34,295 nucleotides of DNA from a virus, in IMG/VR virus record IMGVR_UViG_3300036985_005997, positions 1 through 34,295 of that record; one strand, written 5' to 3'. The notes beneath the pieces were generated by a model, which saw nothing but the letters and a program-made list of their open reading frames with translations, ran no database searches and was not told the DNA's origin. This document shows positions 5,223-32,170 of this stretch, in pieces. A program made the position numbers and the translations under genes. Positions within the stretch are counted from its first letter, which is position 1. Each line of letters starts with the position of its first letter.

Positions 5223-5849
5223 ATGGAGTATCTTATAAGTGAGAGTCAACTCAAATTAATTTTAAGTGAATCTAATGGTAATGGAAATATTACAGAAGAC
5301 CTTAAACAAATGTTTGAGTCTGTAAAACAAATGCTAATCACCAACGCAAATGTTTGGGGATTGAACGCAAAATTTTTAATCACTTGGGGTGCTGCATTGG
5401 GTGGTATGATTCTTCCACTAAAAAATTGGTTAGAAGGTCAATCAACTGATTTAACTCAAGAACAAGTATATCTTTTACTTTTAGGTATTGCATCAAATTA
5501 TTATTACGATAACTCAGATTTTATTAGAAAAGTTGTTGCTAAAATAAAGGATGAAGGGTTAATGGATATCTTTAAGAGATTATATTCCAAATCCGAAGAA
5601 TTAAAAAGAGCTTTAGAAGAGTTTTTACGAACAATTAAAATTAACGTATCAACAAACGCATCAATTGTTAGTTATGCATTTATTTTACCAATACTTCACG
5701 ACATTTATCAATTATATGATGGTGTTAATCCAAATGAATCATTAAAAATGATTATAAGTAGGATAATTGCTTCAGGTGTTGTATTAATTGGTGGTAGTAT
5801 CTTAACCACTTTTATTCAAAAAGTTATAAGTAAACTTTCAGGTAATTAA
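5223..5849 (+). CDS. Leader-tagged membrane protein
   Basis: It opens with the leader MEYLISESQLKLILSES, whose LSE fits the (I/L)xE cleavage rule. Three or four hydrophobic stretches follow: about 50-66 (FLITWGAALGGMILPL), 83-93 (VYLLLLGIASN), 147-160 (IVSYAFILPILHD) and 182-200 (IIASGVVLIGGSILTTFI). It is probably a membrane-inserting protein of 208 residues. A leader plus membrane segments would suit an ejected virion protein; a holin-like role is an alternative. It converges with the gene at 5846, overlapping by 4 bases. Confidence 0.75.
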   Translation: MEYLISESQLKLILSESNGNGNITEDLKQMFESVKQMLITNANVWGLNAKFLITWGAALGGMILPLKNWLEGQSTDLTQEQVYLLLLGIASNYYYDNSDFIRKVVAKIKDEGLMDIFKRLYSKSEELKRALEEFLRTIKINVSTNASIVSYAFILPILHDIYQLYDGVNPNESLKMIISRIIASGVVLIGGSILTTFIQKVISKLSGN

Positions 5850-23116: not shown

Positions 23117-23124
23117 ATAAATAT
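23117..23124 (-). promoter_or_regulatory. ATATTTAT element before the gene at 23095
   Basis: Ends 21 bases before the ATG. Confidence 0.45.
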
Positions 23125-23182
23125 GTGTCAATTTAAGTTATTTTTATCCTCAATACGGCTTTTTTATGTGGAATTGTTTGAA

Positions 23183-23190
23183 TATATTTG
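23183..23190 (+). promoter_or_regulatory. Bacteroidota-type promoter (TATATTTG)
   Basis: Ends 4 bases before the ATG at 23195 of the repeat protein. Confidence 0.6.
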
Positions 23191-23194
23191 TCAC

Positions 23195-24376
23195 ATGGAA
23201 ATAAAACCCAAACTTTACAAACTGATTAAAAGATTCATTACCCAAAGCACCAAAGGTAGTGATGTGTTTATACATAATGGTTCCAAATGGATAATATTTG
23301 TAGAAGACAAAAAATGGGTAATTGAGTTAACTAAAGAAGGAACTTTGTGGTACAATTACTATTTTTTTCAAAATATTTTTGAATTGGTTGATTTAGATGT
23401 TGTAGAAAACCAACATTACATTACCAAATGGGTTGAAGACACCATAATAAATGGGGTGAAATCCGTAAAAGGGGAGTATTATAAAGAAATTCAAAAAGTT
23501 GAATACACCATTCAAAATGGGGTGAAAAAGACCCGTAGAAACGGGGATTCAATGAATACCGAGGCTGAAGATGCCATTCAAAATGGGGTGAAAGAGACCT
23601 TTGAGGGTATCGGAACAGAGGGAATCCACGTTGAAGATGTCATTCAAAATGGGGTGAAACACACCTCTTGGGACCCGACCGGCAAGAAGTCTTTGGTTGA
23701 AGACACCATACAAAATGGGGTGATACACACCATAGACACCACACATCATAAAAACAAATTGGTTGAAGATGCCATTCAAAATGGGGTGAAAGACACCCGC
23801 CTACAATACCACTTACTAGGAAACCAAGTTGAGGACACCATACAAAATGGGGTAAAAGAAACTCATTCAGGTTGTGACCTTCTTATTAATGATAAAGTTG
23901 AAGACACCATTGAAAATGGGGTGAAATATACTGGTGGAATAGGTAATCCAATGTGGATGGGTGGTAGAGTTGAAGACACCATAGAAAATGGGGTGAAACG
24001 AACTAGCGGAAACAAAATTCCTGGTTTATGTGAAATTGAAGACACCATACAAAATGGGGTGAAAAAAACCTACTCAGATAAAATTCCTCATGAATATGAT
24101 TGGTCTAACCAATTTACAGAAGAAATTGACGACATTATTCAAAATGGGGTTAAACACACCGAAAAATCTCTACAAATTGATGGTTCTTGTGTTATTGAAG
24201 ATGTTATAAAGGAGGGTGTCAAACATACTGAATATGGTGATTGGTTAGATGGTGATGAAAGATTTGATGATGTGATTCGTGATGGTGTAAAGGAGACGTG
24301 GGGATATGAGAAACAATCTCAGGATAGAATAAATGAGGTTATTGAAAATGGAACAAAAGAAAACCCCTCCTTTTAA
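23195..24376 (+). CDS. Repeat protein with 14 VEDTIQNGVK units
   Basis: The start at 23195 is set by TATATTTG 4 bases upstream. The 393-residue product has a non-repeat N-terminus (1-79) with a basic, aromatic WIIFVEDKKWVIEL segment, then 14 copies of a core reading (V/I)ED(T/A/V)I(Q/E)NGVKxT from residue 80 to near the end. Variable hydrophilic linkers of about 8-20 residues separate the cores. The last three copies are degenerate. No signal peptide or membrane segment is seen. Function is unknown; a repeat scaffold or binding protein is plausible. The family is not recognised. Confidence 0.85.
   Translation: MEIKPKLYKLIKRFITQSTKGSDVFIHNGSKWIIFVEDKKWVIELTKEGTLWYNYYFFQNIFELVDLDVVENQHYITKWVEDTIINGVKSVKGEYYKEIQKVEYTIQNGVKKTRRNGDSMNTEAEDAIQNGVKETFEGIGTEGIHVEDVIQNGVKHTSWDPTGKKSLVEDTIQNGVIHTIDTTHHKNKLVEDAIQNGVKDTRLQYHLLGNQVEDTIQNGVKETHSGCDLLINDKVEDTIENGVKYTGGIGNPMWMGGRVEDTIENGVKRTSGNKIPGLCEIEDTIQNGVKKTYSDKIPHEYDWSNQFTEEIDDIIQNGVKHTEKSLQIDGSCVIEDVIKEGVKHTEYGDWLDGDERFDDVIRDGVKETWGYEKQSQDRINEVIENGTKENPSF
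23432..24364 (+). repeat. In-frame tandem DNA repeats, about 36 bp core, 14 copies
   Basis: Each core resembles GAAGACACCATTCAAAATGG followed by GGTGAAA and an Acc-type codon, with a period of about 60-85 bases. Copies 2-10 are nearly identical in DNA and the 3' copies diverge, as after recent unequal amplification. The linkers differ freely. Confidence 0.85.
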
Positions 24377-27628: not shown

Positions 27629-28012
27629 TTATTTATCAATCATTATAGGTTGATTTTTTTTGGGGTCCATAAATGATTTTACATCATAATTAAAATTATC
27701 TTCAAACCATTTAACAAAAACCATATACCACCTGTCATCAAACAAATCTGTTAAAATACTCGCGACGTTATCATCATCAGCAAGTAAAAGTGGTGTCACA
27801 CTCTTTAGTTTACTTGATTTGTGAAAGTGATTTTCAAAATATAATGCAGCTAATTCATCATAATTCTCATAATGATAGGTTATTTTAGTGAGAACATCCT
27901 CATTTTGGAATTTCAAATTTGATGTACTTTTAATGGCTTGCTTATCTATTATATTATCTATGGTTCGGTAGATAAGTTTATTTAATTTGTCTTCAGAGAT
28001 ACTGTAGTTCAT
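27629..28012 (-). CDS. Leader-type protein, 127 aa
   Basis: MNYSISEDKLNKLIYRTIDN is close to the MNYAIQ and MTYSIT starts of the 26-27 kb paralogues, but the gene sits in the ParB-like operon, coupled by TAATG to 28012. The body ends in a helical segment with WYMVFVKWFEDNFNYD. Function unknown. Confidence 0.7.
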   Translation of the reverse strand: MNYSISEDKLNKLIYRTIDNIIDKQAIKSTSNLKFQNEDVLTKITYHYENYDELAALYFENHFHKSSKLKSVTPLLLADDDNVASILTDLFDDRWYMVFVKWFEDNFNYDVKSFMDPKKNQPIMIDK

Positions 28013-28425
28013 TATGGTTCAATTAACATATCCATAGGGTTTATACCAAGTTTTTCTAAACTCCAAAGTATTTGATTATATTTGCCATCATATAATTTAT
28101 CAACAAAATTATCTTTCCATCCTTCTGTGGATGCTCTTTTAGTAATTGCCTTTTGAATCCATCCATCTTCACTTGAATGTTCTACATTATGTAAACTTAT
28201 TAAATGAGTATAAGGTTCTTTCAACCATTCTTTATAAGTTTCTGAATTTGGGTCTCCATCAATTGCAGGTGTAACAAAAACAACCCCTGAATCAACCAAT
28301 TTATTAATATCAAATGGTAACTTTTCAGAAACAGTATTCCTTCCTTTTTGATAATCATAAACCCTTTCATTTGGATTTAATTCCATCACCTCTCTAATTC
28401 TCTGTATGTTCTCTTGTAGGTTCAT
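28012..28425 (-). CDS. Leader-type protein (MNLQENI type), 137 aa
   Basis: MNLQENIQRIREVMEL is nearly the same as the start of the next gene upstream, while the bodies differ. The rest is Trp-rich with VFVTPAIDGDPNS and a C-terminal LEKLGINPMDMLIEP. Its ATG overlaps the preceding gene's stop by 4 bases. Function unknown. Confidence 0.7.
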   Translation of the reverse strand: MNLQENIQRIREVMELNPNERVYDYQKGRNTVSEKLPFDINKLVDSGVVFVTPAIDGDPNSETYKEWLKEPYTHLISLHNVEHSSEDGWIQKAITKRASTEGWKDNFVDKLYDGKYNQILWSLEKLGINPMDMLIEP

Positions 28426-28952
28426 TTGATACTTGGTTGTTCAAAATTGTTTGTTCCGTCAGGTTTTACAAAGTATTTATCAATCACTTTTTTATTATCT
28501 AAAACATCGGATAATCTCACATAGTCTTTGTTTTTATCCCCCCAACTTGATTTCATCAATACAACATCTGAGTGTGGTATTACAATCACATCCACATCAT
28601 TCATATCTGACTGAAGGAATGCATATCTCCTGTGATTACCATCCACAACAATATACTTTGAGTTGTCGTATGGATGTTCGATGACTTTGATTGGTGGTAA
28701 CTGTTCCCCATCATTAATTGATTGAATCATATTCTTGATGTTGTCACTTGTTTCCATATATGACGTATCTTTGAATGGTTCATTTGGTAAAGTATCAATT
28801 ACAGGTATTTTTTGAATAGGTCCTATGTACTTATCGGCAAATTCACTTCCGCCACCATCAGAGAATATTTCTACAGGTTGATTGGTGATTACCTCTTCAT
28901 TGAGAAGTCCCATCATTTCTTTAATTCTTGATATGTTCTCTTGTAGGTTCAT
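28422..28952 (-). CDS. Leader-tagged ParB/sulfiredoxin-fold-like protein
   Basis: MNLQENISRIKEMMGLLNEE (LLNE|E) is the leader. The ParB/Srx-type core follows: LPPIKVIEHP, YIVVDGNHRRYAFLQ (DGNHRR at 104-109) and VDVIVIPHSD. The DGxHR box binds nucleotide in family members, which include ParB CTPases, nucleases and sulfiredoxin. No DNA-binding helix-turn-helix is seen after it. The length is 176 residues. A second such gene lies directly upstream. Confidence 0.75.
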   Translation of the reverse strand: MNLQENISRIKEMMGLLNEEVITNQPVEIFSDGGGSEFADKYIGPIQKIPVIDTLPNEPFKDTSYMETSDNIKNMIQSINDGEQLPPIKVIEHPYDNSKYIVVDGNHRRYAFLQSDMNDVDVIVIPHSDVVLMKSSWGDKNKDYVRLSDVLDNKKVIDKYFVKPDGTNNFEQPSIK

Positions 28953-29491
28953 TACTTTGTCTTCTTAACACAGTTGGGATATCTTTTACCGAACATTGTC
29001 TTCATACCTTTTTGAGTATATCCTTTCCAACATCTTTCAGTTAACTCACCTTCTTTCATTTCTTCTTGTCTACCCATATGACTAAACACTTTTCTAATGT
29101 CTTTTGGAAGTGAGTTAATTGGTATTATCTTTGCTTTGATTGTTTCTAACTCTTTTCTTACTGCTTTTTGTGCTCGGTGGTGTCCATCTATAATTGATAT
29201 GAATTTACCATCATTATCAACAAATATTAATATTGGGTATTGTAAATCGGCCTTGTCTATTTTTCCTCTTTCTTCCTCATCACCATCCCAAGTTAATAGA
29301 TATGGTTTAAGTTCTTCTACCGATATTTTTTCCACAGGGATATCTTCCGTGGCGTTCAATAAATCCATAAGGGTTATTTTATCACCTTCATCATTTTCCC
29401 ATGATGTGTCGTGTAATCCTTCTTTTTGTAATCTAATTGTTTTGTATTCAAACAGTTTGTTATACTGTGATTCTGAAATAATAATATTCAT
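28952..29491 (-). CDS. Leader-tagged ParB/sulfiredoxin-fold-like protein with a C-terminal CxxGY domain
   Basis: MNIIISESQYNKLFEY is the leader (KLFE|Y). The core reads YPILIFVDNDGKFISIIDGH then HRAQKA (DGHHR at 102-106) and AKIIPINSLP. The tail ERCWKGYTQKGMKTMFGKR then YPNCV matches a recurrent phage motif of the form CxxGYxxxGxKxxxGxxxPNCV. The length is 179 residues. It is coupled to the next gene by TAATG. Confidence 0.76.
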   Translation of the reverse strand: MNIIISESQYNKLFEYKTIRLQKEGLHDTSWENDEGDKITLMDLLNATEDIPVEKISVEELKPYLLTWDGDEEERGKIDKADLQYPILIFVDNDGKFISIIDGHHRAQKAVRKELETIKAKIIPINSLPKDIRKVFSHMGRQEEMKEGELTERCWKGYTQKGMKTMFGKRYPNCVKKTK

Positions 29492-30622: not shown

Positions 30623-30645
30623 AACCCCTCGTATTAGGAGGGGTT
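30623..30645 (-). terminator. Terminator of the endonuclease-fusion gene
   Basis: AACCCCTC/GAGGGGTT stem, 7-base loop, T run on the minus strand. Confidence 0.85.
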
Positions 30646-30662
30646 AGTCATTTAAATTACAA

Positions 30663-32117
30663 TTATTCTTGGGAATAGAAATTGTCAAATATTATATCTG
30701 AATATTCTTCTTTCATAAAATCAATAATTTCATCCATACTGTCTATTTCATCTAAATAAGGATAATAAATTTCAGCAGTCCAATTTAATATATTATCCGC
30801 ATATTCAAACTCATCATCAAATTCATTTGGGGGATTATCAATCATAGTTTGATTGATGGACTCAATAACAGAAAAATTTGACATTCTTCTTCTAATGTTT
30901 ATTGGTACTGTTTGACCATTTTCAGAATACAACCCAATTATTAACTTGTAAAAATTATCGTCAGGATTTTTCTCACTATTAGTTGTCTTAGTTATCTTTT
31001 CACGATAAAGGTTTTGGATAATTGGGATAATCTTCTCAAAAGTAACGTCACCACATTCTTCATCTGAAAATATCTTAACATCTTCTATCACATATTTTAA
31101 ATGTTTAACAAATCTAATAAAAGCTTCGGTGTCATTTAACTGAGGTATTTCATTATTGTTCCAATAGAATAAATCGCCACCATCAAGAACTTCGTTATTC
31201 TCATCCATAATGGACGGTTCAAATAGAAAATCAACATATTGATTGGCACATTTAGATAAATCGCTTTGTTGTTCTTTAAGTACTCGTTTAACTATACGTG
31301 TTATGTCAGATTCTGTGATAGTATTCAAATATTTTCCAACTTCATCAATAGTTCTGACAGTATAAGGTATTCTAATTAATTTCATATTTTGTGATTCAGC
31401 AAATTTATCTTTAATAAAATCATACATACGTCTAGTGGAGAATCCTTCTTCACCACCAAATCTGTCAACAGGTTTATAATGACCAATTCCATCATACTCA
31501 ATTAGAGTATTTTTCTCAGGTAAATAAAAATCATATTTTAATTTAAAACATTTGTTATTTTTTTCAACAAAACAACCTTCAAATGTTTTTTCTCGTTTAA
31601 AATTAATACCATTTTTTGTTAAAAATTCATCAACTATTCGTTCACCAACAGAAGTGGTTAATCTTTGGGGGAATAAAGTGTCTAACATTCCCTTTCTCCA
31701 AGCAGAAACATATGATGTTGGGGACCCGTATTTAAATTCCTGTCTTGATTTGTATTTTTTGGATTCATCCTCAATAGATTTCACATCCCATATTTTTCTT
31801 GCAGGAAAAAAATCATTAATAATTTTATTTTTAATTGCAAAATTATAGGCACCTGGTGAGTTTTTTTGGAACTCAACATATGATGGGTATTTTTCCGCTT
31901 CTTTTTTTACAGATTCATAATCCCATTTATTCTTTGAGATGGGTAGTATTTTGTCAAGTATACCATTTTTGACTGCAAATTCGTATGCACCAGGTAAATT
32001 TATTTTAAATTGATTTCTATTTGGGTACTTTTCTGCCTCTTTTTTTACTGATTCGTAATCCCAAGACATTTTCTCATTTAAAATAGTCTTAATTAATGTA
32101 TGTAAATTATTACCCAT
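30663..32117 (-). CDS. Homing-endonuclease-like protein fused to a leader-tagged protein
   Basis: Three helical repeats of about 45 residues (WDYESVKKEAEKYP, around 19-150) precede a Vsr/EDxHD-like nuclease domain (about 157-262): GERIVDEFL with Glu159, KYDFYLP with Asp196, LIEYDGIGHY with Glu207, Asp209 and His213, and NMKLIRIPYTV. At 266-283 the frame continues into TITESDITRIVKRVLKEQ, a complete leader, and then about 200 acidic residues of unknown function. The N-terminus HTLIKTILNE is itself leader-like. It looks like an endonuclease gene inserted at, and fused to, a leader gene. Confidence 0.8.
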   Translation of the reverse strand: MGNNLHTLIKTILNEKMSWDYESVKKEAEKYPNRNQFKINLPGAYEFAVKNGILDKILPISKNKWDYESVKKEAEKYPSYVEFQKNSPGAYNFAIKNKIINDFFPARKIWDVKSIEDESKKYKSRQEFKYGSPTSYVSAWRKGMLDTLFPQRLTTSVGERIVDEFLTKNGINFKREKTFEGCFVEKNNKCFKLKYDFYLPEKNTLIEYDGIGHYKPVDRFGGEEGFSTRRMYDFIKDKFAESQNMKLIRIPYTVRTIDEVGKYLNTITESDITRIVKRVLKEQQSDLSKCANQYVDFLFEPSIMDENNEVLDGGDLFYWNNNEIPQLNDTEAFIRFVKHLKYVIEDVKIFSDEECGDVTFEKIIPIIQNLYREKITKTTNSEKNPDDNFYKLIIGLYSENGQTVPINIRRRMSNFSVIESINQTMIDNPPNEFDDEFEYADNILNWTAEIYYPYLDEIDSMDEIIDFMKEEYSDIIFDNFYSQE

Positions 32118-32122
32118 TAATG

Positions 32123-32130
32123 ATAAATAC
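32123..32130 (-). promoter_or_regulatory. GTATTTAT element before the endonuclease fusion
   Basis: Ends 5 bases before the ATG at 32117. Confidence 0.55.
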
Positions 32131-32147
32131 CACTTTAATCAAATAAA

Positions 32148-32170
32148 AAACCCTTCTAAAAGAAGGGTTT
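32148..32170 (-). terminator. Terminator of the 32849-32175 pair
   Basis: AAACCCTTCT/AGAAGGGTTT perfect stem, 3-base loop, T run on the minus strand. Confidence 0.85.

Follow-up and report, generated by a model that had tools for sequence, protein, structure and literature searches.

The locus described here raises the question of why a homing-endonuclease-like nuclease should be read in one frame with two leader peptides and a second domain, and whether its products could travel in a phage head. The window, by which we mean the whole stretch of 34,295 nucleotides that was analysed, is a 34-kb fragment (IMG/VR virus record IMGVR_UViG_3300036985_005997, positions 1–34,295). Its minus strand contains a single open frame at 30663–32117, which runs from an ATG at 32117 to a TAA at 30663 and encodes 484 residues.

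Architecture of the 484-residue frame

The encoded protein is composed of a short N-terminal leader, three helical repeats, a Vsr/EDxHD nuclease, a complete second leader and an orphan acidic domain. The elements are listed here from the upstream edge, with a slash marking a putative cleavage position in this list and below.

32148–32170, minus strand: terminator-like hairpin belonging to the leader gene before this one; it marks where the cassette begins on its upstream side
32123–32131, minus strand: promoter-like GGTATTTAT, 5 nt before the start codon
32070–32117, minus strand: short N-terminal leader MGNNLHTLIKTILNE/K, residues 1–16, putative cleavage after E15; class of MKHLIKRILKEE, MKNLIRRILKEE and MEHNLSKIIKRVIKES
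31929–32069, minus strand: helical repeat 1 (residues 17–63), starting at M17, a possible ancestral start of the endonuclease
31797–31928, minus strand: helical repeat 2 (residues 64–107)
31662–31796, minus strand: helical repeat 3, diverged (residues 108–152)
31329–31661, minus strand: Vsr/EDxHD nuclease domain (residues about 153–263), catalytic residues kept
31326–31328, minus strand: TTG codon of L264, where the downstream leader gene may start internally or may once have started; a TGA in the +1 frame overlaps this codon
31272–31325, minus strand: internal leader NTITESDITRIVKRVLKE (residues 265–282), putative cleavage after E282
30666–31271, minus strand: acidic cargo domain (residues 283–484; pI 4.05), low-confidence model
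30623–30645, minus strand: terminator-like hairpin closing the cassette

The GGTATTTAT element occurs four times in the window, each time just 5′ of a minus-strand start codon, and not at all within the frame. Because it lies upstream of M1, is absent from the interior, and terminator-like hairpins stand at both edges, we treat the locus as one cassette. An earlier note, made from the letters alone, had described repeats, a nuclease, an internal leader and a separate domain fused in one frame, and the 484-residue open frame confirms this arrangement. The leader that it placed at residues 266–283 is indeed present, with its position off by one: NTITESDITRIVKRVLKE/Q occupies residues 265–283, which read NTITESDITRIVKRVLKEQ. 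Residues 1–16 read MGNNLHTLIKTILNEK. The fusion of a leader-endonuclease to a leader-cargo is known from one contig.

The note's proposals of three helical repeats and of a Vsr/EDxHD-like nuclease are both borne out by PHROGs profile searches. The repeats, which contain WDYESVKKEAEKYP at residues 19 and 65 and, in the third repeat, the diverged WDVKSIEDESKKYK near residue 110, match phrog_20046 over three stretches (3.5e-20), and the nuclease matches phrog_559 (1.5e-29) and phrog_9084, annotated ‘homing endonuclease’ (5.3e-25). A Pfam search of the frame gave no significant family. Five residues that are invariant in 52 related endonucleases (D196, E207, H213, D233 and K236) and one that is nearly so (E159) are all present. 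Structure prediction, suggested earlier as a check of the fold, agrees: in the AlphaFold2 model the nuclease has a pLDDT of 95–98, with confidence dropping from about residue 262. The modelled domain superimposes on Vsr (1cw0; Z 11.0, rmsd 2.6 over 105 residues) and on I-Bth0305I (3r3p; Z 10.9, rmsd 2.7 over 96/97 residues), a relationship that fold comparison recovered and that phmmer against PDB sequences missed.

With a Vsr-like fold and the E, D, H and D catalytic residues in place, the nuclease is by profile and model a member of the EDxHD homing endonuclease family, predicted to be active. It shares with I-Bth0305I-type enzymes the catalytic fold, the E/D/E/H/D/K residues and N-terminal repeats as the presumed DNA-binding part. 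Unlike those enzymes, the frame has an N-terminal leader and a fused second leader and cargo; most relatives stop right after the nuclease, whereas this frame continues. The endonuclease half has a pI of 9.34. A group I or II intron-encoded subtype was considered and rejected: the window has no Rfam match at the gathering score.

The leader family and its probable link to the capsid

A degenerate DNA pattern for the leader core retrieved at least 120 loci from IMG/VR. A leader HMM run on these loci, as listed, finds 222 good copies, of which 217 immediately follow a start Met. The internal leader of the window scores 31.9 bits and is the strongest internal copy among the 126 loci listed. At least 187 distinct leader proteins were collected; among those listed, clustering of the 166 with 95 aa or more gives 124 cargo clusters, and 98 of these are singletons. 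As judged from these sequences, many unrelated cargos bear the leader as an N-terminal tag. An alignment of 125 leader proteins contains just two invariant columns, the glutamate of TES and the final glutamate of [IL]xE, corresponding to E269 and E282 of the frame. Leaders among the loci listed end in VINE, VIKE or ILKE, and the two in the frame end in ILNE and VLKE.

The N-terminus of the frame is assigned to a short leader class that is defined by motif and includes MKHLIKRILKEE, MKNLIRRILKEE, MKSLIRKVLKES and MKDIIKKILKEE, in keeping with the earlier description of it as leader-like (ILNE). In the leader loci listed, the short-class motif follows 154 of 1220 ORF starts versus 2 of 3733 internal Met residues, and 15 of the 154 starts are without the TES core. 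Taken together, the HMM score, the N-terminal bias and the motif rates indicate that both leaders of the frame exceed chance. The full motif, [ILVM][IVL][KR].[IVL][LIM].E, occurs in the frame at just two sites, residues 8–15 and 275–282; a point against cleavage at these sites is that L/I-x-E itself is short, with eight such triplets across the frame.

In the loci listed, 120 of 182 leader genes have a TATTTAT no more than 60 nt upstream, against 13.9 expected by shuffling; it is mostly placed 13–18 nt or 4–6 nt before the ATG. It also precedes 211 of 625 other ORFs there, and is therefore probably a general phage promoter element often used by leader genes.

Several further observations concern the range of leaders and cargos in these phages. 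A homologous cargo (GLHDTSWENDEGDK..., up to 86% identical) is present at 28952–29491 of the window and in two other loci (L107:9906–10346 and L099:4603–5715), and its leader differs from phage to phage (MNIIISESQYNKL, MNLQEEIQRIREMMGVINE, MNLKKHIRKVLEEE), a case of leader swapping. A third leader class, MNLQENIxRIxxMMGLLNEE, is found on several proteins (window 28012–28952; L107; L099), and ISESQL-type starts occur at window positions 5223, 20979 and 23131. The plus strand of the window encodes, at 23123–24376, a protein of many VEDTIQNGVKxT repeats, several tandem relatives of which are found in L116 (10342–13391).

The end of the leader matches the presumed cut site of a capsid protein. Six of the six leader records examined encode a Gp23-type capsid protein, and these six proteins share ENQAS[HF]LINE/(A/S) near residue 60; on sequence, LINE/A is the presumed capsid maturation site and matches the leader end. 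T4 gp23 is cut at a corresponding place, after E65. The gp21 protease of T4 cleaves after L/I-x-E, and gp23 loses 65 residues (PMC9026906). The propeptides of the T4 internal proteins are 10–19 residues long and suffice for packaging foreign proteins, including nucleases; EcoRI and staphylococcal nuclease have been packaged and delivered as IPIII/CTS fusions (PMC9026906).

A Peptidase_S77 (T4 gp21) match is found in 17 of 27 long leader records, and also in 6 of 14 large control records without the leader pattern. Since S77 is common in this size class without leaders, the capsid argument rests more on motif identity and strict placement than on co-occurrence. The window, a 34-kb fragment, contains neither an S77 protease nor a capsid gene.

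Two other features of the head genes were seen in these records. The 269-kb record G010 (contig of L062) has S77 protease and Gp23 genes in two copies each, some 200 kb apart, which may reflect two phages joined or a duplicated head module. In G017 (contig of L080) and G094 (contig of L145) the S77 match is broken into two parts of a single long frame (632 and 653 aa), as would follow from an insertion or fusion in the protease gene.

The leader has the form of a capsid targeting sequence (CTS): a short N-terminal propeptide ending in L/I-x-E, common to unrelated cargos. In this it resembles the CTS of T4 IPI–III and Alt. Like T4, many of the long leader records encode a gp21-type protease, and those examined for it a gp23-type capsid protein; the window itself shows neither. 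The leaders differ from those of T4 in having another sequence, a length of up to 25 aa and far more cargos; in the present frame the cargo is, in addition, a homing endonuclease, and one leader is internal.

Could the leader instead be some other N-terminal device, for instance one that affects translation or stability, or one bound by a regulatory or assembly protein of the phage? It is conserved far beyond the needs of cleavage alone, and we found no experiment on any leader protein of the group; no paper in the library searched contains the leader strings, and the leader peptide had no match in cultured phages, where a 23-aa query is weak. Such a device would leave aside the coincidence of the leader end with the presumed capsid-protein maturation site, and strict N-terminal placement on many unrelated cargos matches the logic of the T4 CTS (PMC9026906). 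We regard this alternative as distinctly unlikely.

The junction between the two halves

The endonuclease relatives end a median of 4 aa past the domain (101 ORFs), which in the frame is where the second leader begins, with no linker. If L264 is taken as a TTG start, it yields MNTITESDITRIVKRVLKEQ, whose register is exactly that of short leader genes like the one in L087 (MNRLTERDLSRIVRQVIKED) and which is also close to L100 (MKNNLTESDINRIVNRVINED). In the +1 frame a TGA overlaps this TTG. The simplest history suggested by that overlap is of two adjacent leader genes, perhaps translationally coupled, that were joined by loss of the first stop. Initiation at the TTG could still yield the cargo alone. 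An insertion within a single leader was also considered and rejected, and a two-gene fusion fits better: what lies upstream looks like the latter half of a leader, and the downstream copy is almost a whole one.

A one-base insertion at the junction, in nature or in assembly, would create the fusion, and a one-base indel there would split the frame into two ordinary genes. The fused frame could thus be an artefact of sequencing or assembly, in which a leader-endonuclease ending in TGA and a leader-cargo beginning at the overlapping TTG (TTGA) were joined by one extra base in AAAATATTT. The exact overlap of TGA and TTG at the junction and the AAAA and TTT runs there fit such an error. Short-read assemblies, however, rarely miscall such short runs, in AT-rich DNA it is not unusual to meet an off-frame stop close to a chosen position, and the contig is without independent sign of error; we consider the artefact improbable, the least likely of the explanations weighed here.

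A real fusion may also have been an accident, in which a free-standing endonuclease inserted immediately 5′ of a leader-cargo gene and its stop codon was lost. The fusion would then be tolerated, or the cargo made from the TTG; the N-terminal leader would be a remnant of upstream sequence, and nothing would be packaged. The endonuclease does end exactly at the second leader, and L264 is a TTG in the right register for the leader gene. A same-family endonuclease in another locus (L139:1–2028) offers a parallel: it is in frame with a duplicate of the last 70 aa of an SNF2 helicase, the intact helicase end lies just upstream, and the arrangement suggests that the element brings a copy of the 3′ end of its target gene. 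Insertions of mobE, mobA and a seg gene into or next to phage genes that remain functional provide further precedents (PMC2988022). As with mobE in Aeh1 nrdA and mobA in T4 gene 60 (PMC2988022), an endonuclease gene is here joined to a phage gene without splicing; mobE and mobA split the host gene, whereas the present frame reads through, with a probable protease site at the junction. Accident leaves unexplained the intact N-terminal leader of the endonuclease with its promoter element, and a second, independently tagged endonuclease that has lost its own Met (below). We judge it somewhat unlikely, if the most serious of these competing accounts.

Third-position GC is 0.10 in the nuclease, 0.23 in the cargo and 0.25 in the repeats, values drawn from too few codons to prove origin. 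Scans for close relatives that queried the whole protein, both neighbouring genes and the cargo turned up no empty-site version. The cargo had no relative, with or without a nuclease, in IMG/VR, cultured phage records, 100 related records or bacterial genomes; a 24-residue match in a Balneolaceae MAG looks like chance, and the AlphaFold2 confidence of the cargo is too low for interpretation of its fold.

A second two-leader protein is encoded on the minus strand of L117 (2307–3257). It has an N-terminal RVINE/RQYLMEG and a diverged internal KNVMNE/RRYLMEG at about residues 161–185, and has the appearance of two paralogous leader genes fused together.

A second tagged endonuclease and a possible route into the virion

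Among 101 endonuclease ORFs of the family, one other has a leader start. It is present in L165, L167 and L247, which are identical in protein and were counted as one event. This protein begins MKQLIRHILRE/HTKEIGEIKKTTTPEFIEKAKTIHGDKYDYS, with the putative cut before H, and is an EDxHD-type enzyme that differs in its N-terminal region; GATATTTAT is positioned just upstream of the gene. Family members usually begin M-K-K-L-T-T-x-E-F-I. In these three loci an ATA stands in place of that Met codon, and no further Met occurs until far into the protein; an ATG for the complete endonuclease is therefore provided by the leader start alone. The internal-Met rate predicts about 0.06 leader-like starts in the 101 ORFs, and two independent ones are observed. 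Against this stand at least four further homing endonucleases of leader phages that have no leader (three in G009, one in G048), and none of the other leader proteins scanned against Pfam and PHROGs is a nuclease.

We hold with about even confidence that the frame is a leader plus EDxHD homing endonuclease fused head to tail with a leader plus acidic cargo, the leaders acting as T4-type capsid targeting sequences that are cut by an S77 protease. Both fused products are then probably capsid-targeted and separable by the prohead protease. Late-type transcription would run from the TATTTAT element to the terminator. By analogy with T4, the translated chain would be recruited to the prohead by the first leader, perhaps with help from the second, and the gp21-type (S77) protease would cut after L/I-x-E at E15 and E282. 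The cuts would leave an almost native endonuclease that keeps the second leader at its C-terminus, together with the freed acidic cargo; both would stay in the capsid and enter the next host with the DNA.

The interpretation in the earlier note is thus borne out in part. It had reasoned that cutting the internal site would release the nuclease, which is plausible because both leader ends fit the L/I-x-E rule of gp21-type proteases. Its alternative of a nuclease carried into the host gains independent support from the second tagged endonuclease. What appears to be new is the combination of an EDxHD homing endonuclease with a T4-like capsid leader, each of a known kind. Laboratory fusions that place EcoRI or staphylococcal nuclease behind a CTS in T4 heads have a similar design (PMC9026906); those fusions are man-made, whereas the leader-nuclease arrangement here is natural and seen twice, with virion packaging as its proposed outcome.

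More tentatively, we propose as a possibility short of an even chance that a homing endonuclease has been turned into a virion protein: loaded into the head by natural leaders, freed from a polyprotein by the prohead protease, and entering with the DNA, it might cut a competing or resident genome before gene expression. Homing endonucleases are usually thought to act once made in a mixed infection. If carried in the capsid, they could act at once on competitor, prophage or host DNA, and would link selfish elements with virion-borne weapons. The conserved, repeated leader DNA beside the endonuclease is, speculatively, a possible DNA target. The finding points more broadly to a modular tag system in large uncultured phages, with one leader on more than 100 unrelated proteins, and the leader offers a sequence rule for predicting head cargo in genomes without proteomics. 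Further leader genes are present on the 76.7-kb contig of L247, alongside its tagged endonuclease.
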